Source of the DNA: Patiria pectinifera
Taxonomy: Eukaryota; Echinodermata; Asteroidea; Valvatida; Asterinidae
Assembly (NCBI GenBank): GCA_029964075.1
Contig: CM057135.1
Coordinates: 24,950,863-25,014,862 of the forward strand
Length of the DNA: 64,000 bases
Direction: 5' to 3'
In this document: positions 25,270 to 51,386 of the stretch, piece by piece
Position numbering within the stretch: the first letter of the stretch is position 1
Layout: every line of letters begins with the position of its first letter
The notes under the pieces: model-generated
Database searches by the model: none
What the model was told of the DNA's origin: nothing
What the model saw: the letters and a program-made list of their open reading frames with translations, nothing else
Made by a program: the position numbers and the translations under genes

Positions 25270-25566
25270 TTACATCTTGCCAGTGCAAACCAACTCTCCC
25301 AGGGTCAGCCAGGATGTCTGCTTCCTCCCGCCGGTGTCACCCAGGTGCACCGACTGCACGGGCAGGTACTCCTTGTCGGTCAGCAGACCCTCGTCCGCTG
25401 TCTCGGCCTTGCTGCCTTGATCGCAATTGCAGGTGCCGGCGCAGGCCCGGCTCGTGGTGGAGGCCGGCGCGCCGCCCCAGCTCCTCATGGTTTGGCCGTC
25501 GCGGGACACCCACCAGCCGTAGTCGCTGCCCTTCTTGACAAACAGTGCGGCAGCCTTGCAACGGAG
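25270..25566 (-). CDS. Gene A exon 4: C-terminal fibrinogen-like segment
   Basis: The acceptor is CCCGCGTAG, phase 0; 98 codons then TAA at 25272-25270. It encodes DYGWWVSRDG, SWGGAP, a three-cysteine cluster ending CNCD, GLLTDKEYLPV and LTLGELVCTGKM. Gene B needs two exons for the same stretch. Confidence 0.88.
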   Translation of the reverse strand, partial: LRCKAAALFVKKGSDYGWWVSRDGQTMRSWGGAPASTTSRACAGTCNCDQGSKAETADEGLLTDKEYLPVQSVHLGDTGGRKQTSWLTLGELVCTGKM

Positions 25567-28500
25567 CTACGCGGGGAAAATATGCAGAACCACATTTTGT
25601 ATTAATATGAGCAAATTGGAAAGGAATGGAGTATTTTTGAGAAGGCGTGGACGTTATAGTTACAATGATCGTGAAAACACGCAATGCACGTTGGAAATAA
25701 CAACACCAAGTACACGATATGAATGTATTACTATAGCCAATTGCGGTCATCGAATCAGGATACAGGAAGAAAGTTTCCTATCCAGGGCTTACTATCAGAA
25801 AAGAGGTTGGAAATAAAGTAAGCAATGGGGACGAGGTTGCTATCTCACTGACTTACTCGCTGTCACTTTAAATTGGCTCAGTCTCAAATTGGGCCAAAAA
25901 AAAATGACAGAGATGACTGATTAGAGTCCTTACAGGCAAAAATTATACAACATTTGCAAAGCATCCAAAAACAAAAATACCAAGTTTGAGTATATAATAG
26001 GTACCAGGTGTGCTGTCATTTTCAAGAAAAGTATCAATGTGTGTATCAATTTCCAACGATGGTCGGCTTTTTTTGTCAATACTGCCCTCAATTTTCCAAA
26101 TTTAGTCAGTCCACATTTTGTTTGCAATCGGTTACACATGCGTGAGCCTGCTTGTCTGGTTCCCTGACCTGACAATCTGTAAACTTCCCGTTGCGTCTGG
26201 AGTAGGGTCAGGGAACCAGACTATAAGAACAGCATTGGTTCCTTGGTTTTCCCAGCATTTATGAACATATAACTGTACAAATGCCAGTGTATTAACATTT
26301 GTTATAACATACTTGACCCCACATCCAGTTCTGGAAACTACAGTAAAAGCAAATGTTGCATATTCCTTTTAAATTCAAATAAGTCTTGGACAAGCTTTAC
26401 TAGGTTTACAAGGTCTTGTTGTTGTTTTTTAGGCAAGAAAAAAAGTACAATACCTTGATGAACTGCTCACAAGCGCCGGAGACTTCAGTCAGTGCAGCCA
26501 GCTGACTGGTGTCTGCGTTGTTGTACGTGGGTGTCATCACGAAACTTCCAGGATCCTTGTTGCCGTTGTTCTTAACTTCTTGCTCTCTGTCGTGGTGGAC
26601 CATTGTCGTAGCTGTCCATCAGCCCCAACACAAACACAAAAAGAGAAACCGGCACCCACAATCAGAATCAGTAAAGCCCCAGTCACACATTCACGGTTGG
26701 AGCTACGACTATCCACGGTTTACCAAGAATCAATCGATCACGATTAACCGTCGAGGTTCGTGGAGAAATCGACTTTCTAAGAATGCGCTACGGTTTCAGG
26801 ACGAATAGCCACGACTGTCTTATGGTTTCTATACGAATACACCAAGGTTTGTCAAGAATATAGACGGATTTTTGAAGAATGTCGGCGGTATTACTAAGAA
26901 TTATGACGTTAGCGTTACGGTTGGCTGCGATTGGTTCTCCTACGAATATAGCATACATAATATTCTTAGTACAACCTTAGCAAAATCAGTGCATATCCGG
27001 GCATATCCGTAGGAGATTCGTAGCGAATTTGTAGAGATTTCTACCACGAATGAGCTATGAATCTCCAAGAATATGTACGAATAGCCACGAAAAACACTAC
27101 GAATTAGTACGGTTGTCCTACCGATGTCCCACGGTCGCACTACGGATTGAGTGTCATGACGATTAACCACGGAAGTTTGGAACAGCTTAAAACTTCCGTA
27201 GCCCCTCCACGAATACCCAAGGAAGATGACGGATAACCACGGAGGTACTGGGGATTAATACGGTACTCGCACGGTTTATCACGAATTTCAAACCGCAGAG
27301 ATCCGTAGCTCCCAACCGTGAGGTGTGACTGGGGCTTTAGGATGACAAAGTCAAAGTCTAGTTCCCTGTCCCCCCATTGTCCTTCGGACTTGAAATATGG
27401 GGACAGGTAGCTGGCGGTGAATCTTGCATACACCAGGAGGCATCCCTCCTGATGTATGCAAATAATATGCATGACGTGTACAGTCTGAATTCCGCCTTCT
27501 GTATTGAAAGTCACAACTGTAATGTTTGCCCGCAAGCAGCCTATTGCAAAATGGCAATAGGCCGCACCACAAATGTGCAATTTCCGAGGTGATGACATTC
27601 GATTTTTGCTGAATTCAAAAGTATCTCCGGCAAATATCAATAAAGAGAGTGAAACTACTGTTCAGTATTTAAAACCTTTGCAGCTGAAATGCTTCAAGGT
27701 TGCCTTTATGGAGACACTGATGATTTTGCGTACTTTTTGTGGTAAGACAAGAGTGATTTTTGTTGGGATAATCGTGTGTTCAATTACCGTCATTGCACAG
27801 AGCTAAACAGCGATTTGAAGAAAAAAAATCATGATGCGCGCGCGCAGAGGTGATCCAATCAATTGCTTTAAATGGGAGCTAGCTGGGTTCCCATATGTTT
27901 AAGGGGGGCCATTCTAATAATATTCCAACAAAGTCAAAGCACAAAGCCTTTTTTTGTCAACTACAATGTGAATAATTCAATATATAAGACACAACCCGCC
28001 AATCACATTATGGTTCACTGCTGTTGCATTGTGTTGGTTTATCCCAGCGGGATGCAGATATTTGAAAGCTTGGAGACCATGATATTGTAATAATGCCCAA
28101 GACAGGCTCTGGAAGTACGTTTTTTTCTCCTAACGGAGAACTCTGGTTCTCTCTGGTGTATCCGCATAAACCTCTCCCTATTTATACTCTTCACTTTGAA
28201 ATGCCAAAAACTGTCACAAAAAAATGTGTCATTCTAACCAGCGCTTCCTACACCAAGAAGTAGAGTCCATTACAAGTCCCCACAAGTCTTTAGAAGTATA
28301 TCACAATCCTTAACAAGTAAACCAGTCTCAAGTCAAGAAAACAAGCTATTTAAATGACCTGTGGCAAAGTATTCCTTTGTCATTGTTCGTCCGTTTGTTT
28401 AAAGACTTGTGCCTTAGCTGTGACCACACTTTGTGAGAGAACTTGTGATGGACTGGACTACAACACGGGTTGCGATACTTACCTACTCCGCCGTCAAAAC

Positions 28501-30768
28501 TGCACATAACCTCGAACGGTCTGCCCAGGCCCTTGGGGTCGATCATGTACATGCCGTTGGTCGTCTCGCCCCGGTCGTACAGGTCCTGGCAGGTCTCGGG
28601 GGTGGTGACTACCGGCGGCCGTGGCTGTGTGGTCGGGGCTCGGGTCGTTGTCGTTGGCTCGGGCTCCGGCTGAGGCTCCGGCTGAGGCTCCGGCTGAGGC
28701 TCCGGCTGAGGTTCGGGCTGAGGTTCCGGACGAGGTTCCGGCTGAGGCTCCAGCTGAACTGGTGGGTTTGGCTCTGTAGTTGTCGGAAAACGATGTTCAG
28801 AATTATGTCATCAGTTGAACATCAAACAGCTGCACCCGAAAGTCTCATTTAAGATTGTTTTATGCTCAGAGTGACTGGGTCGGACGGACGGTCGGTCGGA
28901 TCGGTAGGCCGGTCGCGAACTCTTTTTTTTCGTAGGTGGGATGCTCCAAAGTCATGCATAATTCAGTTTTCCTTTGAATCGTTGCAAGACATAAGGTTCT
29001 CGTTCTCTTTTTCCCTTAAAATAAAATTATCTCACCGATAAATTCAGAGAAGAAAAACGGTCGATGAAAATGAGCAGCGACGACTGGGTTTCGAACCAGG
29101 GATCTTTGTATCCATAGCTCATCACGCTTTAAAGGTAACTGGTTGACTAAATACCAACAATGCTCTTCATATCATTGTTCTGTTTCATGAATAAACATAC
29201 TGGTTCGACGAAAACTATTGAATTATTCATGGTTTGGAGCATCCCGCCTACGGAAAGGAAATTCGCAGGCTGGTCGGTCGGGTAAAGCAAACAGTGAAGA
29301 ATTACGAATGTTTCCCGAGGCAATATTTTAAAAGAAACCCTCTGTTTGGAATGATTACGGGATGAAATGTATCCAATTTCGAGCGAAACATGGAGATAAG
29401 TAGCTGTAAAAGGAGTGGCTCAAGAAAAGAAAAGAAAGACATTCATTAGATGCCGACAACCAAATTTTAGAAGACAGTGATTTTGTTAAAATTAGAGCAG
29501 CCTAGCCTCACACGTTGCAGACCGGTGAATACGCCCCGAATTATCACTCGGTATAATGACCATCCAAGTCAGGACGTTACTGAGATGATTTATTGTGGAA
29601 ACACTGAAACTTCCACACGATATAGGGCCTAACACATATTTCATCGATAACTTTTCACTGAAATAGAAAATTCAATCATGATAATTTATCAGGGAAAGGC
29701 ACACTTCAACGATCAAGTTATCTCTGAAACACTGAATTCGACGATGATAATGAAATACGGAATTCAGTGAAACAGTAATAAGGATTCTCCGAAGACACAT
29801 TTCAACGACTTCAAAGACACATGGAGTTCAATAATGATAATTATGTCTTCGAAAAGCGAAACGGTGGTTTAAAGGTTCTGGCTGGTGCAACCCCAATCGT
29901 CCGAGGGTGCAGTGCACACATTCAAATGAGATCTCTGCCATTGTACGCGAGCTCATTAGCAACAACAGTGCCCCCACAACTTCTTTTGGAAAGGAGCCTC
30001 CGTTTGGCTTTAAAAATGGTGGAATTGTATAAATGTAACCAAGGATCAACTCACTGGGTTTTGAGCTTCCATCTGAGGGCAGGCTTGATAACATTAAGGT
30101 TAAAAAAAATGGGTCCTATTTGCCTGAGAAAGTGGAAGGATGCCACTTGTAGAATGGCTACATGCATCCTTGGGAACTATCACTTTTCGGGAGGTGATTT
30201 TGATTTGGTGTAAATATTTTAAAATGTAATTGGCTAGTCTATCCAAATTTTTGAAAAGATATAAAAAGATGAAGGACAAGACAATGATTTTTTTTTTTGA
30301 GAAACCCCAGTGATGTCGGCTTGCATGTTATTTGGCCCTGAACTGTGTACATCTTACACTGTTTTCAATGGGACTTGAATTAGTTCAGTGCACCCCATTC
30401 CATTCATTCAGCTCAATACAGTGAAAGCATATACATGTCTAGGAGTGAAAGTCCTTGTCTTCATTTTTATAGCGCCCCCACTCGCTGAAATTACTGGATG
30501 ACCTTTTGGAGGCGAATGAGGGCGCTCAGCCCAACTCACCGGGCATATTTTCAATCATGCCCTCCAGCTCGGCCACGCGCGCCTCCAGCGCCTCGATCCG
30601 CTGTTCGAACATCTCTCCCTGGGCTTCGATGGCCTCCTCGATGACACCAAAGGTCTGCCGGACCAGGTCCGATTGGGCGTTGGCCAGGCGGTCGGCGTCC
30701 GTGTCCAGGTCGCCCAGCGTCGTGCCGGCAAGCACCAGCAAGCACGTACACAGAATCAGGAGTGACAT
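25270..30768 (-). CDS. Gene A: secreted coiled-coil / Pro-Glu-Gln linker / CNTNAP-type fibrinogen-like protein
   Basis: Predicted secreted protein of about 324 residues. Exons, in transcription order, are 30768-30540, 28773-28483, 26611-26454 and 25566-25270 (975 nt including stop; phases 1,1,0). The start is the ATG at 30768, because it opens a clear leader (MSLLILCTCLLVLAGTTLG); the frame is open further upstream, but that stretch looks like 5' UTR. Residues 20-76 form an acidic amphipathic coiled coil with repeated EAxxAxxxE. Exon 2 adds a PQPE tandem linker, a Thr-rich stretch and the domain entry (TCQDLYDRGETTNGMYMIDP). Exons 3-4 complete a fibrinogen-like fold as in contactin-associated proteins: CEQFIK, WWVSRDG, WGGAP, CNCD, GLLTDKEYLPV, GDTGG, and a final LGELVCTG. 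No transmembrane segment or lectin Ca site is recognised. Function unknown; oligomerising secreted recognition or matrix roles are guesses. It is the divergent paralog of gene B. Confidence 0.85.
25925..26235. repeat. Palindrome-family repeat, copy in gene A intron 3
   Basis: Contains GGTACCAGGTGTGCTGTCATTTTCAAG, TTTCCAACGATGGTCGGC (only half of the palindrome left), CAATCGGTTACACA and a GTCTGGTTCCCTGACC end. Confidence 0.6.
26454..26611 (-). CDS. Gene A exon 3: central fibrinogen-like segment
   Basis: The acceptor is TGGACAG and the donor GTATTG, phase 1 to phase 0. It encodes TTMVHHDRE... ...LAALTEVSGACEQFIK and aligns residue by residue with gene B exon 3, including the CEQ(F/Y)IK end at the same intron. 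Confidence 0.85.
26672..27339. mobile_element. MITE, TAAAGCCCCAGTCACAC ends
   Basis: 668 bp with inverted ends carrying TCACGGTTGG(G)AGCTAC. The inside is full of ACCACGAAT / CCACGGTTTACC words in both orientations. Gene A intron 2. Confidence 0.78.
27140..27640 (-). other. Unrecognised open frame in gene A intron 2
   Basis: A 166-codon open frame, part of which is the MITE above. The stretch 27340-27600 reads without stops (KLHICGAAYCHFAIGCLRAN...) and has no family I recognise. It could be an old element gene, an exon of another transcript, or chance. Confidence 0.15.
27640..28480. other. Gene A intron 2 remainder
   Basis: Nothing recognised. ACAAGT words at 28270-28330 resemble the sub-repeat of the 61-kb array. 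Confidence 0.35.
28483..28773 (-). CDS. Gene A exon 2: PQPE repeats, mucin-like linker, domain start
   Basis: The acceptor is CAACTACAG and the donor GTAAGT, phase 1 to phase 1. It encodes about seven Pro-Gln-Pro-Glu type tetrapeptides from a 12-bp repeat, then TTTTRAPTTQ, then the first Cys of the fibrinogen-like domain and EVMCSFDGG. Confidence 0.85.
28923..29260. mobile_element. MITE/SINE with CGTAGGTGGGATGCTCCAAA ends and a tRNA-like core
   Basis: The ends are inverted (GGAGCATCCCGCCTACGG on the right). The core at 29085-29140 has a - strand B-box-like word, CTGGTTCGAAACCCAG. Flanked by GGTC-rich simple sequence. Gene A intron 1. Confidence 0.5.
29261..30480. other. Gene A intron 1 remainder
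   Basis: Repeated CTGAAAC / TTCAACGATNATAA words at 29600-29830. A 130-codon open frame at 29821-30213 has no recognisable domain. Confidence 0.35.
30540..30768 (-). CDS. Gene A exon 1: signal peptide and coiled coil
   Basis: It runs from the ATG to a GTGAGT donor after AATATGCCCG, phase 1. The leader is followed by a heptad-like stretch (LEARVAELEGMIENMPG). Its sequence is much richer in G and C than its surroundings. Confidence 0.82.
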
Positions 30769-31149
30769 TTTGTTGTTGTGTAGTGTTGTCGATTTTCTAC
30801 GGGATGACGAAAAATAAAGGAGTGAAAATCTAAGCAATACTATAAACGTTGGTGTGCACTGTACTTGTAGCACTCTCACTCTGAGCATTTAACGAGCGCA
30901 ACTGATTATCACCAATTGTCACTAGTTGTCACTACGAGCCAAATTGTCGCCGAGTATCACGGTCACTGAATGTCACCTATTGTCATGTGTCACTGATTGT
31001 CACTTACGGATCTTTTGTGTGTTTTCATGAAATACGCGCCTCAGTGATTTTTTTTGACTTTCAAAAGCCGGCCTTTCTACATTATGCCCCGACCCTGGTG
31101 TCAAGTTGGTGCAGTGATGTTTTCTTCAGCATCTAATTTTTCCTGTTCC

Positions 31150-31597
31150 TAGCCTTTAGTCAAGTCCCACGCGCCTATACCCGAACCATCCGGACACGCA
31201 ATGCACCCCGGATGCTGGCACGTAAAAAGACTAGCACGAGCGGCAAAGCCGCGAGGGCCTTTACTATCTCGTGGAACTAATCACTTATTCATTTATTCAC
31301 GTAATATAAATCAAGCGATATAAACCAATCATCTAACGGTGGTTTGCGGTTACGAGGAAGAGCCAGGGCGCGCGTGCTGTCTGGCGCCAGACGACAGCAG
31401 ATTTACGTTAATAATTCTGCATTTTCATTGGTCAATTCACAACGGGTAATGCATTATGCATGTCTACCAAATCGGTAGACAAATGTAAAGAAAAACATAA
31501 GCGTTCTCCACGAGATGGTAAAGGCCCTCGCGGCTTCGCCGCTCGTTCTAGTCTAGTCACGTGTCCGGGTAAGCGCGTGGGATTTGACTAAAGGCTA
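31150..31597. mobile_element. Inverted-repeat element upstream of gene A
   Basis: TAGCCTTTAGTCAAGTCCCA at the left and GGGATTTGACTAAAGGCTA at the right. The inner arms share CACGAGCGGC...GCCGCGAGGGCCTTTAC with its complement at about 31520-31548. Confidence 0.75.
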
Positions 31598-31599
31598 CT

Positions 31600-32085
31600 T
31601 GCTGTTTCCCGGTTGAAGTCCCACCAGGCAGTTATCGGTTAAAAAAATCAGCTCATCTAGGCTTTTAAAAATTTACTTTTAGAAACGATGATGTGTTCTC
31701 CCCGCAGAGCAACAGAGAGGAGCGAAGCAGTTTAAGTCTTCGTATCCCACGATTTGTTAGCTCAGCAAAAAAAAATGGCAGTATTAACACCGATAGGGCT
31801 ACAACGGTTACCATTCTACGGAAATCCACCAACTTCTAACACGAAGGCAAATCTTCACCGGTGTACCTGCGGGAAAGGTCACTCCGTTAAAAATGGTGGG
31901 CTGCCGGTGATCAAGAGGTAAACATAAAGTTGAGCCCCCCCACCCCCAACCCCACCCCACCCCACCCCCGCGAGGGCCAGCTTATTTCACCCACTCAAAA
32001 TACACATTTGAGGCGTGGGAGAATCAATGAGGAGAATCGTTTGGAAGGAATTGGGTGAAATGCATTGAAGAGACAACTGTACAGG
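31600..32085. other. No gene recognised
   Basis: Includes a C/A-rich run at 31936-31970. Confidence 0.4.
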
Positions 32086-32086
32086 G

Positions 32087-32396
32087 AGAGTAAAAAAACA
32101 CACACAAGGAAACCCAAATGTCGGGACCATTGTTTAAGTGAAGTTCTGCATGTAGCACTTTCAAATTAAAGGATATAATACCCAATTCTTAAGCTTTCTT
32201 TTAGTACCAGAATCATTCAAATCACTCATGTACTTTTCAAGTTACGGAATTTTAAACACAACCAACGTTTTAAGGTTCTGTCCACGGATCACAAAAAACG
32301 TTCAGTGTTCTTTCAGCAAAACTAAAACAAATCACATAGGGATGTGTGTGAATTGTGTTCGTTTTGCTGAAAGAATGCACACCTTTTTTATTCTCA
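32087..32396. mobile_element. Partial relative of the 3.6-kb MITE
   Basis: Shares ATGTCGGGACCATTGTTTAAGTG-type sequence, TAAGCTTTCTTTTAG, CTGTCCACGGATCACA and the inverted TTCAGCAAAAC...TTTTGCTGAA pair. The right outer arm is missing. Confidence 0.65.
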
Positions 32397-32869
32397 ACTG
32401 AAATGTTGACACAGGGTTTCGAAGAAAATTTCGAAGAAAAGTTTTTTTTTCACCAATGACTTACTATTGAAGAATGTTTTTTCCCCCCACACATTGACCG
32501 CGTTATCCCATCCCACCAACTACACGGTAACAATTTGTGCAGCCATGGTCAACGACAAGTCTAAGTATATCGCAAGTTAAATCACAAGTCACTCACGAGT
32601 ACGGTGACAAGTAAACGATGGTGAACAACGATAAAGCGAATGCCTTTGTCACAAGTTGTTTGAATAGCTTGTGACTTGACACTGCATGACTTGTGATTGA
32701 CTTGTAATGAGTCTTGAGAACATGACCACAACGTATACCCTGCTATGCGGCACTCGAAAAAAACAAACACAAATCGCCAAAAACCATATCGCACAATTAA
32801 AGGGAAGATACAAATTTGCAAACATCGCAAACGAAATGATCTCATTATCACAAAATACCTTATTAGATT

Positions 32870-33300
32870 GTTAGGGAATGACAGTCAAAAGCATCCTGTA
32901 AAATCGTGGCTCCTGGTGTGCTGACATTTCAAAAATAAAAAAGTATTTTTCCAACGCTGGTCGGCCGACCAGTGGTGGAGAAAACTGGCTTTTTTTTCGA
33001 AACTGCTTGCAAACTTTTTGCTGCAAAAACTGCAAAAACTCTTTTGATTACATTACACACCTGTGAAGGGGTACAAGCCTTTGAAAAAAATTTGTCGACC
33101 GACCAGCGTTGGAGAAAACTGGCTTATTTTCAAAAACTGCTCCGAATTTTTCATATTAAGTTATTCCTCATTTTCTTTGCAATTGATTGCATACCTGTGA
33201 AGGGGTACAAGCCTGCTAGACTGATTCTCTGACCGTACAATTTCCAAAAGTCTATACATTCTCCGTTTCATCTTAAGTGGGGTCAGCGAACCAGACTACA
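32870..33300. repeat. Palindrome-family repeat, copy 2
   Basis: TTCCAACGCTGGTCGGCCGACCAGTGGTGGA is present in imperfect form at 32949-32980, followed by a second related block with CGACCGACCAGCGTTGGAGA and GGTACAAGCC; ends in GAACCAGACTACAAG. Confidence 0.6.
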
Positions 33301-33489
33301 AGAACATGAATGGTTTTCTTGTGTTTTTTTTTCGAGCATCTACAACACCAAAACGTGAAACAAGTCATTTAACAATTTTTGCTACTACATACTAATCCTC
33401 CAAATCCATTAAATTGAAGCAAATACAAACGTTGTACATTCCCTTTAATGTTCCTTCGCCTGTCAATTCACCCAATCGCGCTCACACAC

Positions 33490-33795
33490 AGCCTTACATA
33501 CTGTGCACATTCCTTTGTATTCGTGTATTTAAGAAAACCAGAGGAAAAACATCACTTTACTCCCATGTGAACACCCTTTCAACTCGATTTTTATATCATG
33601 ATTTCCTTGAGTGTTCCTCTTCATTTTGCCCCGGATAAACCTAGCCCCAAAATGCCTCTTAACCTGTTTCCCAGAGAGGGGGAAACCTAGCGTGGACGTG
33701 TGCAAGTCCACAAAGCGTTCACCGCTTCCTGCGTCATGTGGACCTCTTTTGTTCCGACAGGTCCACAAAGAGTATGTAAGGTTAGAGCACACAAT
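33490..33795 (+). repeat. Dispersed repeat, copy 2
   Basis: Partner of 22670-23005 (CCCCAAAATGCCTCT, GGGAAACC, ATGTGGACCTCTTTTGTTC). Confidence 0.55.
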
Positions 33796-33799
33796 TCTG

Positions 33800-34790
33800 C
33801 ACAAATGTAAAAGAAAATCAAAGTCATGAACTACCTTATTTTGTCCCCGTCAAATCCAGCCACGGACGTGTCAACCAAACTGCACAGTTTTCGCACTCTG
33901 TCGTCTTAAAGTACAACCCAAAGTTGCTTTATTGTGTGTCCTGCATAAAAATACAGCCGTGTTTATCCATCGCTGTTCTCATTCCCAACGCGCGCGGTGA
34001 CGTGTCAAAACCTCCCGACCAATCAGCGCCCGGAACTGAAGTTCAAGGGCCGCCCAACCTTTGTCTGTCTTCCTGCGCGCGCATCGTTCAATGTGCCCGG
34101 TCCAAACATGTGTCATATGTTAAAGACATTGACCGTAAATCAAGATATAGTTGATGTGGGTTTTTGACTGTTAACAATAACACTAGGGGAAAAAAGTAAA
34201 GTCAAGGATTTCTTGAAAAACGAGGGATCCTTGACCGAGACTGTTTACGTACGATAAAATGCAGATTTTTTTTTCTTTAAAGGTATAAAAGATCATTTGC
34301 TTTTTTGTGTACATGTTTTTCGTTATATATTAACCCTAACCATACCACCTTACTTGTTGAAGTTTCAGGTCGGTGGATCATCATTTTGAGAAAAACAGGG
34401 AAAACGTAGGCACAATTTGGTCTCGTCACTATATTCCTTTTGTAATGCACGTAAAAAAAACCTTTCTGAAACCACCTTCAATGATTGTTATCTTCTGAAC
34501 GACACCATTTCTGAAGGAATTCTACGGTATTTTGCCTGTCCTGTCTACACTTTGACCAAGGATTTTCTCGTTATGTCGGTTCCTTTAAAGTTCCTTTAAA
34601 GGGGTAATAAACTTCACCAAACTAAAAGTTACTGAACCCTTTTTCTTTAAAGGGAAAGTACATCATTGGCTTTTGCTGTAATTTTCAGAAATGAACCATT
34701 TGAGGGTTTAGTATAATAGATCAAATACTGTTACACTGACATGTTTGAAGGTTTGTGTTCGAAAATGCTGGAAAAACCAAGAAAAACAAA
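33800..34790. other. No gene recognised
   Basis: Mostly AT-rich; no supported feature. Confidence 0.4.
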
Positions 34791-34794
34791 AATG

Positions 34795-35075
34795 TTCAAG
34801 TAGTCTGGTTCCTTGACTCCACTAAAGCTAAAATGGATCAATTTATAGATGCCTGAAAGTTGTAAGGTAAGGGAACCAGTCTAGCTGACATGCACCCGTT
34901 CATGAACATGTAACCAATAGCACACAAAAAAATTGAACTGAAACAAGGGTAAAGTTGGAGCAGAAGTTGAAAAATAGTTGGGTTTTCCAACGGTGGTCGG
35001 CCGACCACCGTTGGAAATGTATACAAAAATATCATTTTCTTGAAAATGACTTCACACCAGGTGCCATAATTTTAT
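34795..35075. repeat. Palindrome-family repeat, copy 3 (inverted orientation)
   Basis: Holds a perfect 34-bp palindrome at 34984-35017; each half reads TTTCCAACGGTGGTCGG. Flanked by GTCTGGTTCCTTGACTCC and TTTCTTGAAAATGAC...ACACCAGGTGCC, the family hallmarks in reverse. Confidence 0.75.
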
Positions 35076-35079
35076 AAGA

Positions 35080-36760
35080 TTCTTCAGACTGCTGTTTACC
35101 AACATCCTAGTAAGATATTTCGTAAAACTTGGTAGTTTTATTTTTCGATGTTTGCAAATGTTGTATATTCCCCTAAAAGATTGAAAAAGAACACACCAAA
35201 CGTGTTCATCAACCAGATAGTTCCCTTAAAACAATATCCATCTTGATTTTGGCGAGTGCCCTGTATATCCTCATCCAGAATAAATCTTTTAAACAATAAC
35301 AAACAATCAAGGATGTGGCATGGATTTGTTTATTTTATCGGTTAAATTGTATGTGTTTTGGGGTGGTTTTTTGGGGGTTTTTGGGTAATGTGGCACAATC
35401 GTGTTTTTTTTTATATTTTGTTAACCTCTTGCGAAACCAAGATCTTATTAGACATGTGGCTTGTCTAAGATAGGAATGTTTCAAGGGTGAAGGAATGAAC
35501 AAACCCGATTTTCATAATTGTTAAATAAGACGGACGATACGGCAGGTACAAACACTTGAAATAGTCTTACGTACAAGCTTAACAACCTACGTAGTAACGT
35601 CCAAAGAGAGTCTTGTTTTGCAAGTCAGCCTCGCTCTGGACGTATGATGGAAGGGGCGTTTCAAATTAATCACAAAGGAGGCACTCTCTCATATGGTACT
35701 CATCCACGAATATTCTAATGAGGGGGTGGAGCACATCTTCGACGGATAGCCGATGTATGGTAAGGAATGTGCGATCTAGCTCTTTACGTTTTCTCAATAA
35801 TGGCGTGATCATTAAACGTCCACTTGAGGTTGCATGACATGATATGACGCCTCGTGCGAGCAGGTGGATTTGGTGACGTCACTTCCGGAACGGCCTGAAC
35901 AATCAGAAGACGCGATTTTGCAAACAAACAAACCGTGAACTTGGTAACGCGCACGTCATTCCCGGACAGAGCAGGGAAAACAGTCAGGAAACCAGACGCT
36001 ATATCAAAATGTCAAATCAGTCTGGGCCAAATTTTCATTAAAAAATAGAAATCTTCCACTTCCTAGTTATTACTTCCCGGCATTTCCCCACGGCTTTAAA
36101 CTATCAAGACCATTTTTCTTTTTCTTTCAGATACTAGTTTGTACACGTGAACATGCCCGCGCGATTGGTATCAAAGCCCTTGACCGACACCGGGTGTGAA
36201 CAAATACGTGCGGACCGGCAGGTCCCGTGGGCCGCGAATTCCCGGTAAAGACAGCTTCGTGCGCGTGATTCACGATACAAGGTTACTGACGATTAGTCCA
36301 TTTTCACAATTATTTTTGTGTCAAACTGGAAAAGTACAGCAATGAAGTTTCCAGACGTTTTCCGGGGAGGCCACGGTAGCAATGGGAGACGCATCCCGTG
36401 TTTACGACGCATGGTCCTTGGGAAAAACGTTGTAAATATCCCACGCATATCTCGCTGCACGATTCCTTGCACGGGGACTTTGACCCCAAACAAATGTCAC
36501 TTTGTTTTTATTTTATTTTTAAGCTATGGCAGGAGGAGTGATTACGAACGTTTTTTTAATCAAGCCTACCAATACCCGTTCCCTTTACGGACTTGTGAAA
36601 TAGTAATTAAAGACAGATAAAAATGGGGAAGATTGCCCCTTCGAGAAAAATGAGTTCCAGCCCCCCCTCCCCCTTAAAGTTAATTTTCAAAGTTATTTTG
36701 TAAACATCAAAAAACAAAACTACCAAATTATTATGAAATACCTTAATAGAATAGTATGAG
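35080..36760. other. No gene recognised
   Basis: 35860-36500 is more GC-rich, with TGACGTCA at 35875 and several CpGs, but I see no exon. Confidence 0.35.
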
Positions 36761-40352: not shown

Positions 40353-40359
40353 TTAGGCC

Positions 40360-40930: not shown

Positions 40931-40938
40931 GTCCGGGG

Positions 40939-41320
40939 TATAAAGTCATGGGACAACAACAGTGCGTGGGAATCCGGGGGAACACCGCTGCACTATTAAT
41001 GCCACCCGCGCACTAGCGAGGAGAAAGTGCTTGGAGCTAGTCTAGGCTTTTACTATCCCCTGTGCCCTTGCATTGTAATCTGCCTCAGCCAGCAATTTTT
41101 CACTGAGCACTGCATCGTATGCGCGTAATAAGCAACACTGGCGCGTAATAAGCAACACCGTTGTTCAAAAGTCTTACGTCAGGAGGCGATTTGAGTCGAG
41201 CGTTCCCGAGCTGAAACGACAGTTGATAACGATTGTTGGCCTTAGCTTACTCGGTGTAATCGACAGGAGGACGATTTGAACGATTGGGAAAGTGGTAATA
41301 TCGGCAGCCCTCCAGATAAG
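40939..41320 (+). promoter_or_regulatory. Candidate TATA box and non-coding first exon of gene B
   Basis: A GGGGTATAAAG sequence at 40935-40945 sits in GC-rich DNA. An AAG|GTAATT donor at 41320/41321 could join to the TTTGTTGCAG acceptor at 42949, just before the gene B ATG. This explains why an acceptor stands at that point. It is a guess; no initiator element was identified. Confidence 0.3.
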
Positions 41321-42062
41321 GTAATTATGCAATCATTTCTGCTGTCGTAATATGGAGGAATGTTTGAACAAAAGCTGAAAATGTCTTAAATTGCTTGAAT
41401 TGTTTTGTCAAATGCTCTAACATCGATACAACCGGAGAAACTGTGTTTCAACTATAACAACATCACCACGCTTAACAAACTTCTAAAAAGCTTCCAGTTT
41501 CTGACATCATCTCAACGCACACTATAACACTGTGCTGTAATTATTTATCAATGTACTCACCAAGTAGGCCTACGAATCTTTTGGTTCCCGCGTGACACGC
41601 AGTTTTATCCTTGGGTGAAACTCGGTGGTGAGGCAAGGACCGTGTTTTTGGTTATAACTGAGCACCAGCCGCGCTCTGCCTGGTTCTGTGCGCCTTGCCG
41701 TGGTAGGGTGCCACCTGTCAATGTGTCAGACCCCGTCATACATCAAACTCCCTAGGGACCGCCTCCTATAGGCCTAGACTGGCCTTCCTAGTCCTTCGCA
41801 AGTGAACTTCCCCACTGAACTTAACACCGCCTTCGTTCGCTGATACTGTCGTGCTCAACTTTATTTGTGAACCAAAGTGGACATTTGTGACAAGCCTGAA
41901 CAGAAAGACAAATAGCCATACTGAAATCCCTCCACTTATAGTTTCAAGTGTCAAAATTGTTTTAATGATGATGGATAAATTTATTCTGACTGATTAAAAA
42001 AAAAAGTTATGGACGCAGGTGAGGGGACTGATACAACTCTATTGTTAGGTACGAGTTCGTTT

Positions 42063-42376
42063 ATGCTGTCTAGAATATTCTTTCTCTACATTGTAGTTGT
42101 ATACTTGTTAGAAATGACAGTTCACTAATATCTTTGTGGTTAAAATTGTCGTCGATACTCAACGGGTGCTCTAGACCTATTGTTTCTCCAATTTTTGTTA
42201 GGCGTGACTCGTGAGTGAAGTATACATGTAATAGTCGACTGAATTTTTGTGGTTACAAATACTACGAGTTATGTCAAAACGCAGCAGGTTTCTGATACCG
42301 ACTCACTAACAACATAACTTTGGCAGTTACCCCAATTATAAACTGCCACATGTTCACATTTTTGCCCTATAATTGG
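42063..42376 (+). repeat. Direct repeat, left copy (upstream of gene B exon 1)
   Basis: Runs CTAGAATATTCTTTCTCTAC, GACTCGTGAGTGAAGTATAC, ACTACGAGTTATGTCAAAAC to TTTTTGCCCTATAATTGG and matches 43417-43733 with small indels. Confidence 0.75.
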
Positions 42377-42956
42377 CCTTATGTAAGGAGTGGGCGCTTT
42401 AGTTTGTACATGGCGGACCAATTTTGTTAGACGTCCTGTCGATTTGAACGGATTTGAGGCTTAGAGATGGTGTAAGCTTCGCTTGAACGCGAATTCAAAT
42501 GATTTGACGTCATAAAGCATTCGCAGTAAAAATCGCTGATGGTTGAAGTGTGTTCAATTTTCTTGTGAAATCGCAGCTCCGAAAATTTGACCTGACGTCA
42601 CAAATCTGCATACATTTTAAACTGGCGCATATAATTACTTCAGATCTCTTTTTGAGGTGTCTCGATTGTCGCACTATTTTAGTGGTTTCATTTCTACATG
42701 CCGTAATTCAAGATCACTCCGACCCATGCTCATGCACACCGAGTAAACCTATATTATTAGGGACAAGACGATTTCGAGTGAAATTCATTCAAACGATTGA
42801 ATTGATTCTTCAGTCTGAAGTGAATCTTTTTTTATCAACCTAAAATAAAAGCGAACTTCACTCGAAACCGTCTGATTTTTACAAGTTAAATTTTGGGAAA
42901 TAAACGGACACAGGGAGAGAGATCTCAATTTTCCACGTATTTGTTGCAGGCCAAAA

Positions 42957-43251
42957 ATGCAGCACTCACTACCAACCGGCCTGGTACTTTTTGTCGGTCT
43001 GCTCGCCACTTTCACCGGCCAGTCCAGCGGCCAGCCGGCCCTGGGCGAGATCTACCGGCTGAATGGCCTGCAGTCCGACCTCCAGATGGACACCTTCCGG
43101 CACGTGGGCAAGCTGATGAACGACCAGTACCGCAGACTGGACAGGCGACTGAAGGCAATCGGTTCCCGGATCAGGAGGGCCGAGCGGGACCTTGGGGTGG
43201 ACAGCCCGCCAGACGAGCCCTTGGGAGGGCCAGCCTTCCCCAATATACCAG
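42957..43251 (+). CDS. Gene B exon 1 (coding): signal peptide and helical region
   Basis: It runs from ATG to the GTAAGC donor after ATACCAG, phase 1, the same phase as gene A exon 1. It encodes the leader, EIYRLNGLQSDLQMD and an Arg-rich amphipathic stretch. The exon probably begins at 42950, after a TTGCAG acceptor. Confidence 0.82.
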
Positions 43252-46200
43252 GTAAGCTGAACACATTGGCGTATAAACTAAGGTGCCATTTTCGGGGATG
43301 GGGTGGGAACAGAGAGAACTCATTGGGTGTGGTCATTTTCAGGAGGCACTTGGAGTTGTCATATTAAGAGGTAGGCGTTCACTTGGTTTTCTCATTTTCG
43401 GAGGGGGTTACTTGCTGTCGAGAATATTCTTTCTCTACATTGTAGTTACACTTGTGTGAATGAAATATAACAGTTCACTAATATTTTTGTGGTTAAGATT
43501 TTCGTCGATATTCAACGCGTGCTCTAGACATATCGTTTCTCCGATTTTTGTGACTCGTGAGTGAAGTATACGATACATGTAAAAGTCGACTGAAGTTTTG
43601 TGGTTACTACGAGTTATGTCAAAACGCCACAGGTTTCTGATACCGAGTTACCAACAACATAACTTGGGCAGTATATACCCCAACTATAAAAACGCCACAT
43701 GTTCACATTTTTGCCCTATAATTGGTGTTTAGACGTCGGTGAAGGGCGAAACTGATATTGATTTACATCACCCCGGACGCAAAGTCCATCTTATGAATAC
43801 TTTCATTGCGGTACACGCTGCTACAGATTCAAACCAGCCAACCGATCCCGCAAGCTCGATGGTCGAGTGGTAAGACGTCTGCACTAGATAGATAGCGTAA
43901 AGTCATGGTTTCGAGTCCCACTCGAGTGATTTTTCTAACATTCACTCGGGAGGTAACACACTGAGTATAGGCTACAGTGTTTATATCATGAAGGGCAAAA
44001 TCGCTTGGTTTTTGTCATTTTCGGGGGGAAGGGGTCACTTTGGGTTGTCATTTTCTGAAGAGGCATTCATTTGGATTGGTCATTTTGGGGGGGGGGGGCT
44101 TGGATATAGTCGATTTTCCGAAGAGCTATAGAGGGTATTCACAAGGGTTCGGTCTTATATTAGTAGGGGGACTTGGGTAGTCATTTTCTGAAGAGGGTGC
44201 ACTCGACAGGTTTTGAAAACAATATGAAGTTCAACTTTATTTTCTCCAGAATCCCGAGCGAGGGGATATGGGGGCTGGAGTTACTCACCATGCAGTGTTA
44301 CAACTCACATTTAAAGACGAATAATTAAGATTTACTCCAAACTGTACTCCACAATGTACAACTTATTCGTGTCGAATATTTTTGTGTGTAAATCTAGACA
44401 AAAAATGCATACATCCAAAAACATTTTGGGTTAAACACAAAGGGGCAAGCTAAACATTTTTCCCCCGATAATTCGATTGCTAAAAGGTAATCGTGGTCTC
44501 CGCAGTGAAAAAGTTTCAAATCACATATCAAACCAAATATTAAAATTGTCGGGAAAAGATCCTTTATTATAGGCTACATTCCCTATTGTCCGACAACTTT
44601 CTTGTCGAATAATAATTTTGAAAATGTTGACCCCTTACATTTCAAAATTTGAAGAAGATTTTGGGTAGAGAACAGCAATGCAAAGTTTCAAGTCACATTT
44701 CAAAACACACAGAAAAAAAATACGAAAAAAGATCCTAGATTCTCAATCTTCGACAAGTAAGGAAATCTAACGATTTCCTTTTACTTGTCGAAGAAAATTT
44801 TTGAAATTCCCCACCTAAAAGCTTTTACTTCGAAACTACTCTTTGGTCGAGAACCTAATCTGGGCAAATTCAACATTGTTGGAAGTGTTCCAAGCGTTCC
44901 TCCTTGTTGTTTGGACGATGAGTCAAATTCGTTCACCTGTCTCCGTAGCTCATCGCCTGGAGCCTGCTTGTTAGTCCTACTGACAACTGGATTACACGAA
45001 AAGCATCTAATGACTTTATGTACTCGATGATTGAGGCGGAAGTTGTGTAATGACCTCGCCCTATATAGCTCGGGGGACTCCCTGAGATCATCACTATAAT
45101 GAGTGCAGACATGATAATTTGCTTTTCATGCATTTTGTTCTTTCCAGTGATAAAACCACTCAAAGTCCAAAGAATACACTTTTCAAGAAAGCAGTGAAAA
45201 ACCACATGAACAACCATGCGATCGCGAAACAAGATTTCGTCCATAGCACTCTTTTTTTCCAACAAATCTGATCGTTGGAAATCACCTACATTTCTGGACA
45301 TCTTCTTAAATGACAGAAAGCCGGACAGAGTAATTCCACGGGATGTTTAGTACTGTATCAGTACGATCTGCAAGGAAGTTTCTTGATGATAATTTCCGTA
45401 GGTTACTTTTGGAATAAATACAAAATTTTGGCACCCAACGAATTTTTTATTGTTTTGTGTTATTTCAACAAAAACTTCCTCTTTTTCTGTTTTGGGCATT
45501 TTCAGCCTCTGAAAACGTTTCTTTTTTTTAATTTAGGGTTGCTTTTGCGCCTCTAACGCACAAACAGATCAACCGTACTTAAGGATTCTATAATCAATTT
45601 CTCATTTACTTTAATTTGATCGCAAAAAAAAATACAATTAAACAAAAGAAAAATGTATTAGGGAGAAAGTAGAAAAGGCATACTATATGCATCTTGCGCG
45701 TTTAAAAGTATCGGAAAAAAGAGGCTATATCTGTTTTGAGGTTCCCATATGTAGTCCTCTATTTGGGTGATGCACGTGGTTCGTCTTTGGAACATCCATT
45801 AAAAAAATCCTCATCAATCCTCAAAATCGTGGATATTCCTTGCATGCAGTGCTGCACGGCTGTATAGGTATTGTCCCGCCCCTTTTTCAGCCCTCTCAAC
45901 CAATCAAAAGCCAGCATTTGTTTTTTATTTTTGTTTTTTAGGGGTGCGAGAAGAAATGAGGAGGGACTGAGGAGGGATAGGCCTATGGCGGGTAGTGATT
46001 TAGCGGCTGTATTGCGTAGAGATCGTAAAAGCGTTTAAAATTAAATGTGTTCATGTAGTACATCGGATTTGAATCAGATTCGAACCAGCCAACCGCTCCC
46101 GCAAGCTCAGTGGTCGAGTGGTAAGACGTCTGCACTAGAAAGCAGGAGGTCGTGGGTTTGAGTCCCACCCGAGTGAGTTTTTCCAAATTTCACTCGGGAG

Positions 46201-49200
46201 GTAAACAGAGTACACAGTGCTTATACGTCGGTGAAGGATTATTGATATTTCTAGTTGGTTTAATTTCGTGAACTTTGGTCTGTTTTGCTATATGTTGAAA
46301 TGCACAAGTTGATTATATATTACATTGTGTACGCTACACTGAAATTATCGGGTTTTGTTGACTATATTTTTAGACATGCAGAATTTATAAACTGCAAAGA
46401 CACACATTGAAGAATAAACTGTTCAAACACATCTGGAGAATGGATCACTCATAACAAAACATATCAACTTTCTCTCAATTACTTTGAAATACAATGAACC
46501 GTACAAAACCGTCCACATGCACACTTCAATTTATCGCGCTAGTTAAAAACAAATCGATCTGGGTTTATGTCGGGGGTAACAATATATGTTTTAAGATGTA
46601 TTTAATGATTTGCTCTCCTCAATTTTCGGGGACGTCTGTAATTTTAGTTCAAATACAGTCAAGCTAATTTAACCGGTTAATGCTATCTATTAAAAAAAGA
46701 CTCATGTTTACCATAATATTGGCAATTACAGTTGGATCTGCATTTTGTGACTCAAATACGGGCAGTTGGTGTCAATTTCTCAGTAGGCCTACACGTGAAG
46801 ATCAAATGAATCGTTTTTTTTAATCCACTCAGTGTCCCAGAAAATGAAGCTCTCTATTTTAAGTGCCACCTGTAAGTTGGATCCTGTAGCTACGCCATTC
46901 AACACCTGTCCCATCAATTAACATCGAAGCTAGTATTATAGCCAAGATTATATCAACCGGAACTTCCTGCTCGCCTGTCGTATGCCGTCCGTGGCGATTA
47001 GCAACCTCAAAAATGATTTAGCCAAGCTCTCAAACCAACCGACAAGACTTGTGTTTTTGGTTGACAAATTTTACAAAAGGGAGGAATTCTTTTTTTGTTC
47101 CTCTCTAAAAGTGAAACTTGAAAATGAATTAACTGCTGAAATGAAAGGTTTGCGGAAACACCATGTGCGAATGATTTCTCAACTAAAAGAATGGTTCTGA
47201 AAAGAAGTAGAGGTATAAACTCGACGTTTCGGTCAGTATGCTCTGACCGTCTTCAGGAATTAACTGCTGCAAACTGGGTTGACCTGAAATATGTAGGTGA
47301 TTCCCAACGATCAGTCAGTTGACTTATCTTTTGAAAAAAAGAGGTATATTATAACGAAATCGTCTTTCGTTCCCAAATAGCGTGCATGATTTTTCACTGT
47401 TATCTGTTATCTGTTAGCTTCTGTACAAACGCCTGGTGTGGCTATCGCGTACAGCCTCATGGTGTATGTATGAGGATAACTGCCAGAAACACCGGGGCGA
47501 ACCCCTTCTCTTAGCGATAAGTGTTTGCTGGGTTCTTTTACGTGCATTGTTCAACACACGGGACCTACAGCTTTACGTCCCATCCGAAGGACGACGCAAT
47601 AATGGTTAAGTGCCTTGTTCAAGGGCACAAGTGTCCGGGCCCGGGCTTGAACCCCCTCCACTGTTGCCTCTGAAACACCAGAGCATGAGTCCGGTGTTCC
47701 GAACCGCTAGGCCATCTCACCCCACTGTTTTGTCATCAAGTGTAATATCCACCGAGCTGAAACTTCAACATGTTAAATTTTGAACAGTCTTCTTTGGATT
47801 TTGAGTGGTGTTATTTTTGGAAACGAACAAAATCTTTAACAGCAAATGATATGCCTTTGAGAGTCATGACTTCAAGACGGCATCTTATCTATTCATATTG
47901 GGAAGAGATCACTTTTTGGTCCTAATTGCTTAACTCCCATTAAAATTGCCATCCTCTTTTAAAGATGAAGGCCCTAACAACATCGGGAACCGGCCGGGGA
48001 ACATACCCGACAAGCCCGTGCCCTCTCCGCCCCCTGTCGGCCAGATCGCGCGAACCTGCGACGAGATCTACCGGATGGGCTACCGGAACGACAACGAGTA
48101 CGTGATCGACCCCGACGGCCAGGGACTACGCACCGTGCCGGAGTTCAACGTGCGCTGCGAGCTGTCCAGGGGTGAAGGTGAGTATGTTCTGCCTGAACCT
48201 GGGGTGAACGTTAGCTGAACCGGAACCGTGCCTTCCGAACCGGCACTATGTCCGAGGAGCCATATACCGAGCCAGTCAGATCAGCTCTGGTCTCATCAAA
48301 TCGGTTCTGCTCTCATCAAACCGGTTCTGTTCCAATCAAACCGCTTCTGTTCCAATCAAACCGGTTCAGTTCACATTAAACCGGTTCTGTTCCAATCAAA
48401 CTGGTTCTGTCCCAATCAAACCATCATTGTCTCATCCAAACGGGCATTGTCTTGACCCAACCTTTCTGTGCCGACTAAACCGGCCAAAATAATAGGCATC
48501 TACCTTTCCAAACCGGCATTGGCCCGGTTGAACCGACACTGTCTCAGCCAAACAGGGACAGTGCCAACAAAAGCAGTACCGTACAGCCCAAACCAGCATT
48601 GTCTCGACCAAACCGAGACAATGGCAGCCAAACTGACTTGTGCCTTCCAAATCGTTGCTGTGCCGGCCAAACCGGTCTCGGTCAGGTCAAACCGGCATTG
48701 TCTCGGTCAAACGGGCAACGTGCCTTCCAAACTAGTACCGTGCCAGCCAAACCGGAATGTTGCCGGCCGAACGGCCTTAGCACGTTCAAACCGGCATGGG
48801 CCAGGCCAAACGTGCACCGTGCCGGAATAACCAGCATTTTCCGGGCCAAACCGGCATTGCTCCTTCGTAGCCTAACTGCCACTGACCAGCAACGGCCTCG
48901 GCAAAACAAACAACATGCCGGCCACACATCCCAGCCAAACCGGTACTGTAGCAGCCAATACCAAATCTAAAAGCTGGACTTGAAAGATATTAGTTGTGAT
49001 TTATCCTCCCGATGTTCTTGCCACAGGCGTGACGATAGTCGGGCACAACTACGAAACCGAGCCGGTCTTTGTGTCGGGCTACGAGCAGCCCGGCTCGTTC
49101 CAGCTGCAGATCCGCTACACCAACGCCGACTTCGAGCAACTGGAAGCACTGACACAGGCCTCGGCTAGCTGTGAACAGTACATCAAGGTGAGCCAAAACA

Positions 49201-51386
49201 CCCATTACAAAGGGATGGAGATGACTTGGGGAGTCAGGTTGGCGTAGCGGTACTTTCCTCGCCTTCCACCGCTGTGACCCGGGTTCGAATCCCGCCTGGG
49301 CCAACATGTGGATTGGGTTTTCAGTCCCTACCTGATTCCGTGGGTTTTCCCCAGAATATTCTTCTGGGGTTTTCCTCCCACCTCTAAAACTGTAATTTCT
49401 TCTCATTGTCTCCTCTCTACAGGTTTCTTCAGGCTTGCGAGCTACAGTGCCTAGGTTTTTTTTTTTATGAATCTTGGTTTCATTACCAGAACTTAATAAT
49501 AATAATGCAAACTCGTAGTCATTTCTGTAGTTTAGTGTGTGTCGTTGGCAGAATATTCCGAATGTGGGTTTCTTAACCCAGCCAGGAGATATTGTCCTAG
49601 TGTTCTTGGGCAAGACATTTTACTGCAATCACGTCTTTTAAACCCGGGTAAAATCACCGGTACTTTGATCGCAGAGACGGTTCAGATTTCATCAGGAGTT
49701 TACTGAATGTTTTACTGAACTTGGAATAGAGGGCAAGTTGTTTACCTTCGCTTATGGCTCAAAGAACATGTTAATTGGCTGATACTGTATTTTTATTGAC
49801 AGTTATATTTGTTGTTTAATTTTTTTTAGATTGTGTGTATGGGAGCGGTCCTGTTCCGGGCCCAATTGCGGCGAGGCCACCGCGACTACGGCTGGTGGAT
49901 CGCCCGTGACGGCACCCGTATGATGAGCTGGGGCGGTGTGCCCTCCTCCCCGGACAGTGGGCAGTGTGCTTGTGATCTAGACGGTAAGACAGAAAGAGTT
50001 TTCAGCTGCTTAAGGCAAAAAAAAAAATCTCCGGTTTCTGGTATGGAGCTTGCCCAAAAAGTGGTGCAGCGACGCCTTTTTTTTTTTTTATCTGATTTTT
50101 TTGCTTCAAATGTCGGCTGATGACTGCAAATGGTGCCCGACTAAACTTAGTGCAAATATATGGGAGTCCAGAGAGGCCATATAAAGCTTATTCTCGACCA
50201 TAACCCAATCTAAAAACACGTTAAAATTGTGCAGCAGCAGGATTCCAGTCAAACCAGTGAGTTTGGCGGTTTTGAGACATCATCTTTCATTGAAAAAAAA
50301 CTTTTTCATTTTGCCGACGCGCATGGTTACGGCGACGCGCGCGCATACCAGAAACCGGAGACCTTTTTTTGGCCTAAGCGGATTTTTTTTCTTTTTCTGC
50401 TCAGTAGAAACCAGTCAAGAATCAGTAACCAGCTATCAAAGACGAATAACTTGTTTTAACTGGTAACCTATTTTTGTTTAGCAAGTATGTTGTAGGTTTC
50501 GCTAAGTGTTTTTGTTTATTTTCTGCTTTGCACATTTATTTGCTAAACAAATTGGTGAGTTGGTTTCCGGATGTTCAACGAAACATTGCAAGCCTCTTTC
50601 CTGTTTGAATTGTACGGTTAGTTGGATATTACACTATAATTCGAGAAAACAGTGCAAAACCATGCACAACCTTTTCATCACGAAACACGATTTGACTCGT
50701 TATTTCCAACGAACACTCGACTGACTGATCTTGGAAATAGCCTACATTTCTTGATTTCTTCTCAATGACAGCAAGCCAAACGGAATGATTTTACGGGGTG
50801 TGGAGTACCAGTACGATGTTTAATCAAAATAACCTTTTTGAAATAATTCGCCAGGGATGAAATTCATGCAAATGATGCCTTTAAGCATGTCTCACCGATT
50901 TCAGTTATCTATGTCCATAATTAGTCTGAGTATGCAACACATGCCTCATGAATTATTCAATTTTTTCCTTTCAAGGCAACCAATCACTGTGGCGATCCTT
51001 GGATAAGTATATACATGTATACCAAAATCACATTATAATACTGTATCAATCGCCAATGAAACACTACAATCTGTTTTGGGTGTTGGTTCACTCATCCCAT
51101 TGACGTTACTGGCTCCATACACCAGAGACAATCTCTACAAAACCTGGATTCCTATTTATCAAGAAAACAATGTTATCTCTGCCCGTTTACAGGATCTTGC
51201 GTCAACTCCCATTTCAAGTGCAACTGCGACTCCAACAACAAGTTCTGGTCCGAGGACTCGGGCTTCCTGACGGACAAGCGCTACCTGCCGGTCCGCATGG
51301 TCTACCTGGGCGACACGGGCGGCACCAAGGAGAAATCATGGCTCACCCTGGGCGAGCTCCGCTGCAAAGGGTTTAGCGGAGAATAA
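42957..51386 (+). CDS. Gene B: secreted coiled-coil / CNTNAP-type fibrinogen-like protein, paralog of gene A
   Basis: Predicted secreted protein of about 338 residues. Exons are 42957-43251, 47965-48177, 49027-49187, 49830-49983 and 51193-51386 (1017 nt including stop; phases 1,1,0,1). The ATG at 42957 follows AAA and starts a leader (MQHSLPTGLVLFVGLLATFT). Residues 30-80 are charged and helical, probably a coiled coil. A Pro/Gly linker follows, then TCDEIYRMGY with EYVIDPDG, then CEQYIK, YGWWIARDG, SWGGVP, a five-cysteine cluster CAC...C...CNCD, FLTDKRYLPV, GDTGG and LTLGELRCKG. These match the CNTNAP/neurexin IV fibrinogen-like domain in order and spacing. No membrane segment is seen. A TTTGTTGCAG acceptor seven bases before the ATG suggests a further non-coding 5' exon. 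Function unknown. It lies about 12 kb from gene A, transcribed away from it. Confidence 0.88.
43417..43733 (+). repeat. Direct repeat, right copy (start of gene B intron 1)
   Basis: Partner of 42063-42376, about 1.35 kb apart; the first coding exon of gene B lies between them. Confidence 0.75.
43734..43990 (+). mobile_element. tRNA-derived SINE, copy 1, with rearranged body
   Basis: CCCGCAAGCTCGATGGTCGAGTGGTAAGACGTCTGCACTAG-type A-box half at 43848, B-box-like GGTTTCGAGTCCC at 43909, then CACTCGGGAGGTAACACACTGAG. A stray body segment (GACGTCGGTGAAGGGC, CACCCCGGACGCAAA) lies just upstream at 43730-43790. Confidence 0.6.
43991..46080. other. Gene B intron 1, no exon recognised
   Basis: A G-rich block at 44020-44180 repeats TCATTTTCxGGGG. 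44470-44800 holds two diverged copies of a block with AAAAGATCCT and TTGTCGAA. 45120-45310 resembles 50600-50770 (CATGCA... CACGAAAC..GATTT, CCTACATTTCT, AATGACAGNAAGCC). Confidence 0.4.
46096..46245 (+). mobile_element. tRNA-derived SINE, copy 2
   Basis: CCCGCAAGCTCAGTGGTCGAG (A box), GCACTAGAAAGCAGG, GGGTTTGAGTCCC (B box), then TTTCACTCGGGAGGTAAAC and TACGTCGGTGAAGGA. Better preserved than copy 1. Confidence 0.68.
46250..47210. other. Gene B intron 1, no exon recognised
   Basis: A 72-codon open frame at 46982-47200 is rich in Lys/Leu and unrecognised; it stops just before the hammerhead-like motif. Confidence 0.35.
47210..47262 (-). ncRNA. Hammerhead-like / Penelope-type motif
   Basis: The - strand reads CCTGAAGAC, a stem GGTCAG with loop AGCATA and CTGACC, then GAAACGTCGAG. 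CTGANGA, a stem and GAAAC-GTC are the hammerhead core elements, and such motifs flank Penelope-like elements. There is one extra base after CTGAAGA, so activity is doubtful. Confidence 0.3.
47420..47726 (-). mobile_element. tRNA-derived SINE
   Basis: The - strand begins GGGGTGAGATGGCCTAGCGG (A box), continues GGACTCATGCTCTGGTGTTTC, and has the B box GGGGTTCAAGCCC, then CTTGTGCCCTTGAACAAGGC. Confidence 0.65.
47965..48177 (+). CDS. Gene B exon 2: linker and domain start
   Basis: The acceptor is CTTTTAAAG and the donor GTGAGT, phase 1 to phase 1. It encodes a Pro-rich linker (PDKPVPSPPPVG) and the first domain cysteine pair (TCDEIYR, FNVRCELS). There is no PQPE array, unlike gene A. Confidence 0.87.
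48200..48960. repeat. 20-bp minisatellite filling gene B intron 2
   Basis: Degenerate units of AAACCGGTTCTGTTCCAATC shading into AAACCGGCATTGTCTCGGTC run almost from the donor at 48178 to 60 bp before the acceptor at 49026. Several frames stay open through it, but none is a gene. Confidence 0.85.
49027..49187 (+). CDS. Gene B exon 3: central fibrinogen-like segment
   Basis: The acceptor is CTTGCCACAG and the donor GTGAGC, phase 1 to phase 0. It encodes GVTIVGHNYETEPV... ...LEALTQASASCEQYIK. Confidence 0.87.
49229..49480 (+). mobile_element. tRNA-derived SINE in gene B intron 3
   Basis: GTTGGCGTAGCGGTACTTTCC (A box), CCGGGTTCGAATCCCGC (B box), then GTGGATTGGGTTTTCAGTCC and GTGGGTTTTCCCC. The tRNA-like head is well kept. 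Confidence 0.7.
49830..49983 (+). CDS. Gene B exon 4
   Basis: The acceptor is ATTTTTTTTAG and the donor GTAAGA, phase 0 to phase 1. It encodes IVCMGAVLFRAQ, DYGWWIARDGTRMMSWGG and QCACDLDG, the first two cysteines of the cluster. Confidence 0.87.
50006..50381. mobile_element. MITE in gene B intron 4
   Basis: Inverted ends: CTGCTTAAGGCAAAA...TCTCCGGTTTCTGGTAT against ATACCAGAAACCGGAGACC...GGCCTAAGCGG. It starts 22 bp after the exon 4 donor. Confidence 0.65.
51193..51386 (+). CDS. Gene B exon 5: C-terminus
   Basis: The acceptor is CGTTTACAG, phase 1. It encodes SCVNSHFKCNCD, the LTDKRYLPVRMVYLGDTGG stretch, LTLGELRCKG, then FSGE and TAA at 51384-51386. Confidence 0.88.

Follow-up and report, generated by a model that had tools for sequence, protein, structure and literature searches.

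Within a 64,000-nucleotide stretch of Patiria pectinifera DNA (the window), two genes, g1 and g2, encode small proteins in which a fibrinogen-like domain follows a predicted helix. The question raised by this locus is what kind of domain this is, how the two genes are related to each other and to other genes of the same genome, and what their products might do.

Gene models and protein layout

We reconstructed both genes from the raw sequence. g1 lies on the minus strand and has four exons, intron phases 1,1,0 and 324 residues, and g2 lies on the plus strand and has five exons, intron phases 1,1,0,1 and 338 residues; all introns are GT-AG and the spliced frames are open throughout. The models splice into exactly the open frames that the initial annotation had delineated, with the same positions and residue counts. 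It had also described the intron phases as matching, which is true of the three introns common to both genes because the phases are 1,1,0 and 1,1,0,1, the fourth intron of g2 (phase 1) being additional. The genes are divergent, with starts that point apart and approximately 12 kb between them. In g1 another ATG lies in frame 120 nt upstream of the start, and no stop separates the two. Both proteins have the same layout, in which a hydrophobic leader is followed by a proline-free heptad region, a proline-rich linker, and one domain that ends at the stop. The exons, in window coordinates, are as follows.

g1 exon 1: 30540..30768, minus strand, leader and heptad helix; phase 1 out
g1 exon 2: 28483..28773, minus strand, Pro-rich/Thr linker and first part of the domain; phase 1 out
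g1 exon 3: 26454..26611, minus strand, middle of the domain; phase 0 out
g1 exon 4: 25270..25566, minus strand, end of the domain and stop; spans the equivalent of two g2 exons
g2 exon 1: 42957..43251, plus strand, leader and heptad helix; phase 1 out
g2 exon 2: 47965..48177, plus strand, linker and first part of the domain; phase 1 out
g2 exon 3: 49027..49187, plus strand, middle of the domain; phase 0 out
g2 exon 4: 49830..49983, plus strand, YGWW/WGG part; phase 1 out
g2 exon 5: 51193..51386, plus strand, CNCD to LGELRCKG, then stop

The leaders were called from hydropathy alone. Heptad periodicity was compared with that of 2000 shuffles, the window maximum being re-taken for each shuffle, using windows of 28, 35 and 42 residues. 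The g2 score was reached by one of the 2000 shuffles at each of these lengths and the g1 score by 1, 41 and 126 respectively, such that the heptads of both proteins exceed chance and the g1 signal is weaker over the longer windows. Cysteine is absent between leader and domain in both proteins, and neither has a second hydrophobic segment in a hydropathy scan (the highest 17-residue hydropathy starting past residue 40 is 0.87 in g1 and 1.24 in g2). Gly-X-Y repeats, as read from the sequence, are absent from both. Genome-wide at E 0.001, the leader-coil exon of g2 matches nothing besides itself, and its g1 counterpart matches in two other places only, on C8 and C3 (123 of 188 candidates scored); these two fall on the coil and linker and were not counted as domain copies.

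A genome-wide search for LamG (E 0.001 or better; 109 of 109 candidates scored) gave 54 matches, none of which is within 2.6 Mb of the window on its contig (C7), the nearest being 2.6 Mb away. With heptads ahead of the domain, no LamG match within that distance and no second hydrophobic segment, the earlier description of a domain standing alone behind a helix and linker holds.

Several other features were noted in the window. The first intron of g2 includes a tRNA-like element (46104-46176, plus strand) with an unreadable anticodon, and a stretch near 43850 resembles it; the element is possibly a tRNA-derived repeat. Tandem arrays are present at 6939-7525, 48295-48422 and 60795-62087, the middle one within a g2 intron. 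A 387-residue open frame at 18725-19888 (plus strand) matches rhodopsin-family GPCRs (7tm_1, 94.1 bits), and a reverse-transcriptase piece is located at 15446-16060 (plus strand; RVT_1, 41.5 bits). A scan for bacterial promoters and terminators was set aside as uninformative for an animal gene.

Relationships of the domain

The motifs quoted in support of a CNTNAP-type domain (CEQxIK, YGWW, WGG, CNCD, LTDKxYLPV, GDTGG and LGELxCxG) are all present in both proteins, and the genome provides a direct comparison in a CNTNAP-like gene on contig C15, where an EGF exon and a LamG exon exceed their Pfam cut-offs and four LamG matches (17.491 to 17.503 Mb) surround a copy of the domain at 17.49 Mb. This copy aligns with the window proteins over all but approximately the first 14 residues, at 40% identity with g1 and 37% with g2; within a small local set of sequences the E-values are 1.4e-37 and 9.6e-40 respectively. 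The paralog C14a is a slightly better match to g2. Judged by sequence, the domain of g1 and g2 is thus CNTNAP-type, as the initial annotation had proposed. The resemblance to CNTNAP/Caspr/neurexin IV is in the domain, whereas the window genes lack a nearby LamG or a transmembrane segment and have a heptad helix and linker in their place.

Relationships beyond this type are more distant and point in two directions. The Pfam search that had been suggested for the two proteins placed g1 near COLFI (23.4 bits, cut-off 26.2) and Fibrinogen_C (20.0 bits, cut-off 22) but below both cut-offs, with neither family matched by g2. COLFI is the sole Pfam family above cut-off in any scanned domain copy (C14a, 32.3 bits against 26.2), and neither the C15 copy nor C1a is matched by any family in Pfam. 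We built an alignment and profile from g1, g2 and eight of the 20 additional domain copies described below; four of these ten members match COLFI at E 0.1 or better and one matches Fibrinogen_C. In hhalign comparisons the alignment of the family profile to COLFI extends across 153 columns (probability 86.6), and the window pair alone gives 3.5, the COLFI rows coming from three loci and being incomplete. With classic FBG domains the alignment covers approximately 50 N-terminal columns (51 at a probability of 91.0 for the family profile; 52.1 for the window pair alone). By these comparisons the relation to COLFI spans a larger part of the domain than that to FBG, but it is distant and visible mainly through the paralogs.

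The COLFI link is no cleaner than the FBG link in the sequence comparisons. In blastp searches the E-value of g1 is 0.001 against FBG but 2.4 against COLFI, and a PDB search with the ten-member profile found FBG chains, aligned over about the same 50 N-terminal columns, and no collagen chains. The alignment of C14a to collagen I is broken into three short pieces (overall E 0.19). An NCBIfam search of g1 returned 17 families, none at its cut-off, and these were rejected; the best is a fibrinogen-like YCDxxxxGGGW domain at the domain start (residues 137-167, 21.1 bits against a cut-off of 30), and the remainder overlap the coil or linker.

Kinship of g1 and g2 and further copies in the genome

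The initial annotation had placed the domain, outside these two genes, in a large multi-domain membrane protein, which the genome does not support. There are 20 further copies on seven other contigs, 22 places counting g1 and g2, although two of the 20 are known as one exon each. Some follow a leader and a PAN-like region: on C20 a leader and a PAN domain above cut-off (40.6 bits) precede the CNTNAP-type domain, and on C1 a leader and a PAN-like match below cut-off (18.2 against 21.4) do so. Others are combined with F5/8C, as on C272, which has one F5/8C exon above cut-off, a second below, and three domain copies. The order and strand of the PAN-like, F5/8C and EGF/LamG exons suggest that they share transcripts with the domain copies. 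To join the paralog exons, a script ordered the alternative splices by their fit to a profile of g1 and g2, so that the junctions lean on that profile. Two pairs are near-identical, C20a/C20c and C1a/C1b, the latter approximately 300 kb apart at 28.67 Mb and 28.97 Mb of C1, and both pairs could be allelic.

Two other sets of lectin-related matches were observed. A C-type lectin frame on C20 (L073:2443-3036, plus strand; Lectin_C, 53.5 bits) is upstream of the gene with PAN and CNTNAP-type domains, and classic FBG matches in the genome number at least 152 (150 of 485 candidates scored), many of them clustered on C19, C21 and C4.

A tree of 20 domain copies was made from g1, g2 and 18 of the 20 further copies, with the single-exon pieces C12d and C559 dropped; it retains the C12b and C20 copies, which look partly mis-joined, and the partial copies C12c, C14b and C272a. 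In this tree g1 and g2 form a sister clade with support of 99/96, and the next grouping of the pair is without resolution. The two domains are 51% identical, and over 188 aligned codons they have 96 identical residues, with dN 0.47, dS 1.07 and dN/dS of approximately 0.44 (NG86, the same 188 codons). Both genes interrupt the domain midway with a phase-0 intron; the other copies, with junctions ranked by the g1/g2 profile, read across this point either without an intron or with a phase-1 intron a few positions further (C15, C272b, C272c). The domain contains 8 cysteines in g1 versus 10 in g2, where C271 and C277 are without a g1 counterpart in the alignment. On the support of the tree, g1 and g2 are sister paralogs.

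Among the copies with readable upstream exons (not C12 or C14), the coil layout is met in g1 and g2 only. It may be the combination of coil and domain, not the domain itself, that is unique to the pair. A stand-alone CNTNAP-type coil protein was also not found in the literature as judged from titles and abstract openings, and the combination of a helical stalk with a single CNTNAP-type domain looks unusual.

Candidate roles of the encoded proteins

The reading that we favour, by a modest degree, is that these divergent duplicates encode secreted extracellular proteins joined by their coils, whose CNTNAP-type domains bind a partner. In broad terms the most probable products are matrix, adhesion or recognition proteins that are secreted and oligomerise through the coil. 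The helix would join two or three chains, presumably without disulfides because there is no cysteine between leader and domain, and the linker would act as a flexible arm that spreads the chains. The domains at the free ends could then bind a partner (matrix, cell or microbe) with avidity. In favour of this reading are the open spliced frames, the heptads, the lack of a second hydrophobic segment, the sister relationship of the pair and its common phase-0 intron, the match to the C15 copy, the distance from any LamG match, and the COLFI scores of C14a, g1 and the family profile. Against it are the COLFI and FBG results given above for g2 and for the window pair alone, the fading of the g1 heptads in longer windows, and the lack of a poly(A) hexamer after either gene. 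In the collagen I C-propeptide, as described in PMC5353611, a base and petals come after a three-stranded coiled-coil stalk, and this stalk-then-domain order, here without collagen, makes a trimer a reasonable guess for g1 and g2.

The principal alternative is that the proteins are soluble immune recognition molecules resembling ficolins and FREPs, with a domain for binding microbial surfaces and a coil that adds avidity. The likeness drawn by the initial annotation stands for the layout, since an oligomerising N-terminus (predicted in g1 and g2) is followed by a C-terminal fibrinogen-related domain, and it is echoed in the FBG alignment of the family profile and in matches of g1 to fibrin(ogen), angiopoietin-like and ficolin-2 chains (E 0.001 to approximately 0.06) that extend over approximately 40-60 residues and stop before leaving the initial part of the domain. 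It carries over less well to the domain, where FBG similarity is limited to approximately the first 50 columns, Fibrinogen_C is below cut-off in g1 and unmatched in g2, and the calcium motif is missing. This motif, F[ST]TxDxDND, is present in 8/8 of the best-scoring classic FBG domains examined, and a looser form of it is absent from both window proteins and occurs in 1/20 other copies (C272c). The ficolin/FREP analogy thus suits the layout better than the domain, and an FBG-lectin role appears weakened by the absent motif; the many classic FBG matches in the genome are also the more obvious lectin candidates. We regard this alternative as improbable, at about one chance in several, and a matrix or adhesion role as somewhat more likely than microbial recognition.

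Rather less probable is a hetero-oligomer that contains both proteins as chains, the acidic g1 coil pairing with the more basic g2 coil. The genes are divergent neighbours and the 56-residue helical regions have net charges of -11 (g1) and +4 (g2), but the e-g' pair scores (g1-g1, 2; g2-g2, 1; hetero, 1 in one direction and 2 in the other) give mixing no advantage; this charge-pair count does not separate homo- from hetero-assembly and was rejected as proof of the latter.

A more elaborate version, which we consider doubtful, is a secreted free-standing oligomer on the plan of the collagen C-propeptide (a stalk and a COLFI/CNTNAP-type domain) without collagen, with g1 and g2 as chains of one assembly. 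The predicted order of stalk and domain and the 153-column alignment of the family profile with COLFI are in accord with this, whereas the absence of Gly-X-Y, the COLFI score of g1 below the Pfam cut-off, the lack of any match in g2, and the low probability for the pair alone set g1 and g2 apart from collagens. Finally, that g1 and g2 are pseudogenes or pieces detached from a larger CNTNAP-like gene is very improbable. In its favour, the genome has a CNTNAP-like gene that carries this domain, and the five poly(A) hexamers sought are all missing from the 600 nt after either stop codon. Against it, the frames are fully open with an A at -3 of both starts, dN/dS is approximately 0.44, each gene has its own leader exon, and no LamG match lies within 2.6 Mb on the contig.

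A comparison within the echinoderms is with the skeletal fibrinogen C-like proteins of PMC5460417, which like g1 and g2 (as predicted) are extracellular invertebrate proteins with fibrinogen-related domains. In the accessible text of that report they are tied to the fibrinogen Fred domain, whereas PMI_009988, a contactin-associated protein-like 5-like protein, is grouped separately under EGF domains, and no coil-plus-CNTNAP-type protein is described among them.

The CNTNAP-type domain emerges as an extracellular module that occurs in several layouts in one animal genome and is distantly linked by sequence to the collagen C-propeptide. Should the predicted oligomer exist, g1 and g2 would offer a small soluble model for the binding partner of this domain, which would bear on the CNTNAP proteins of nerve cells too.
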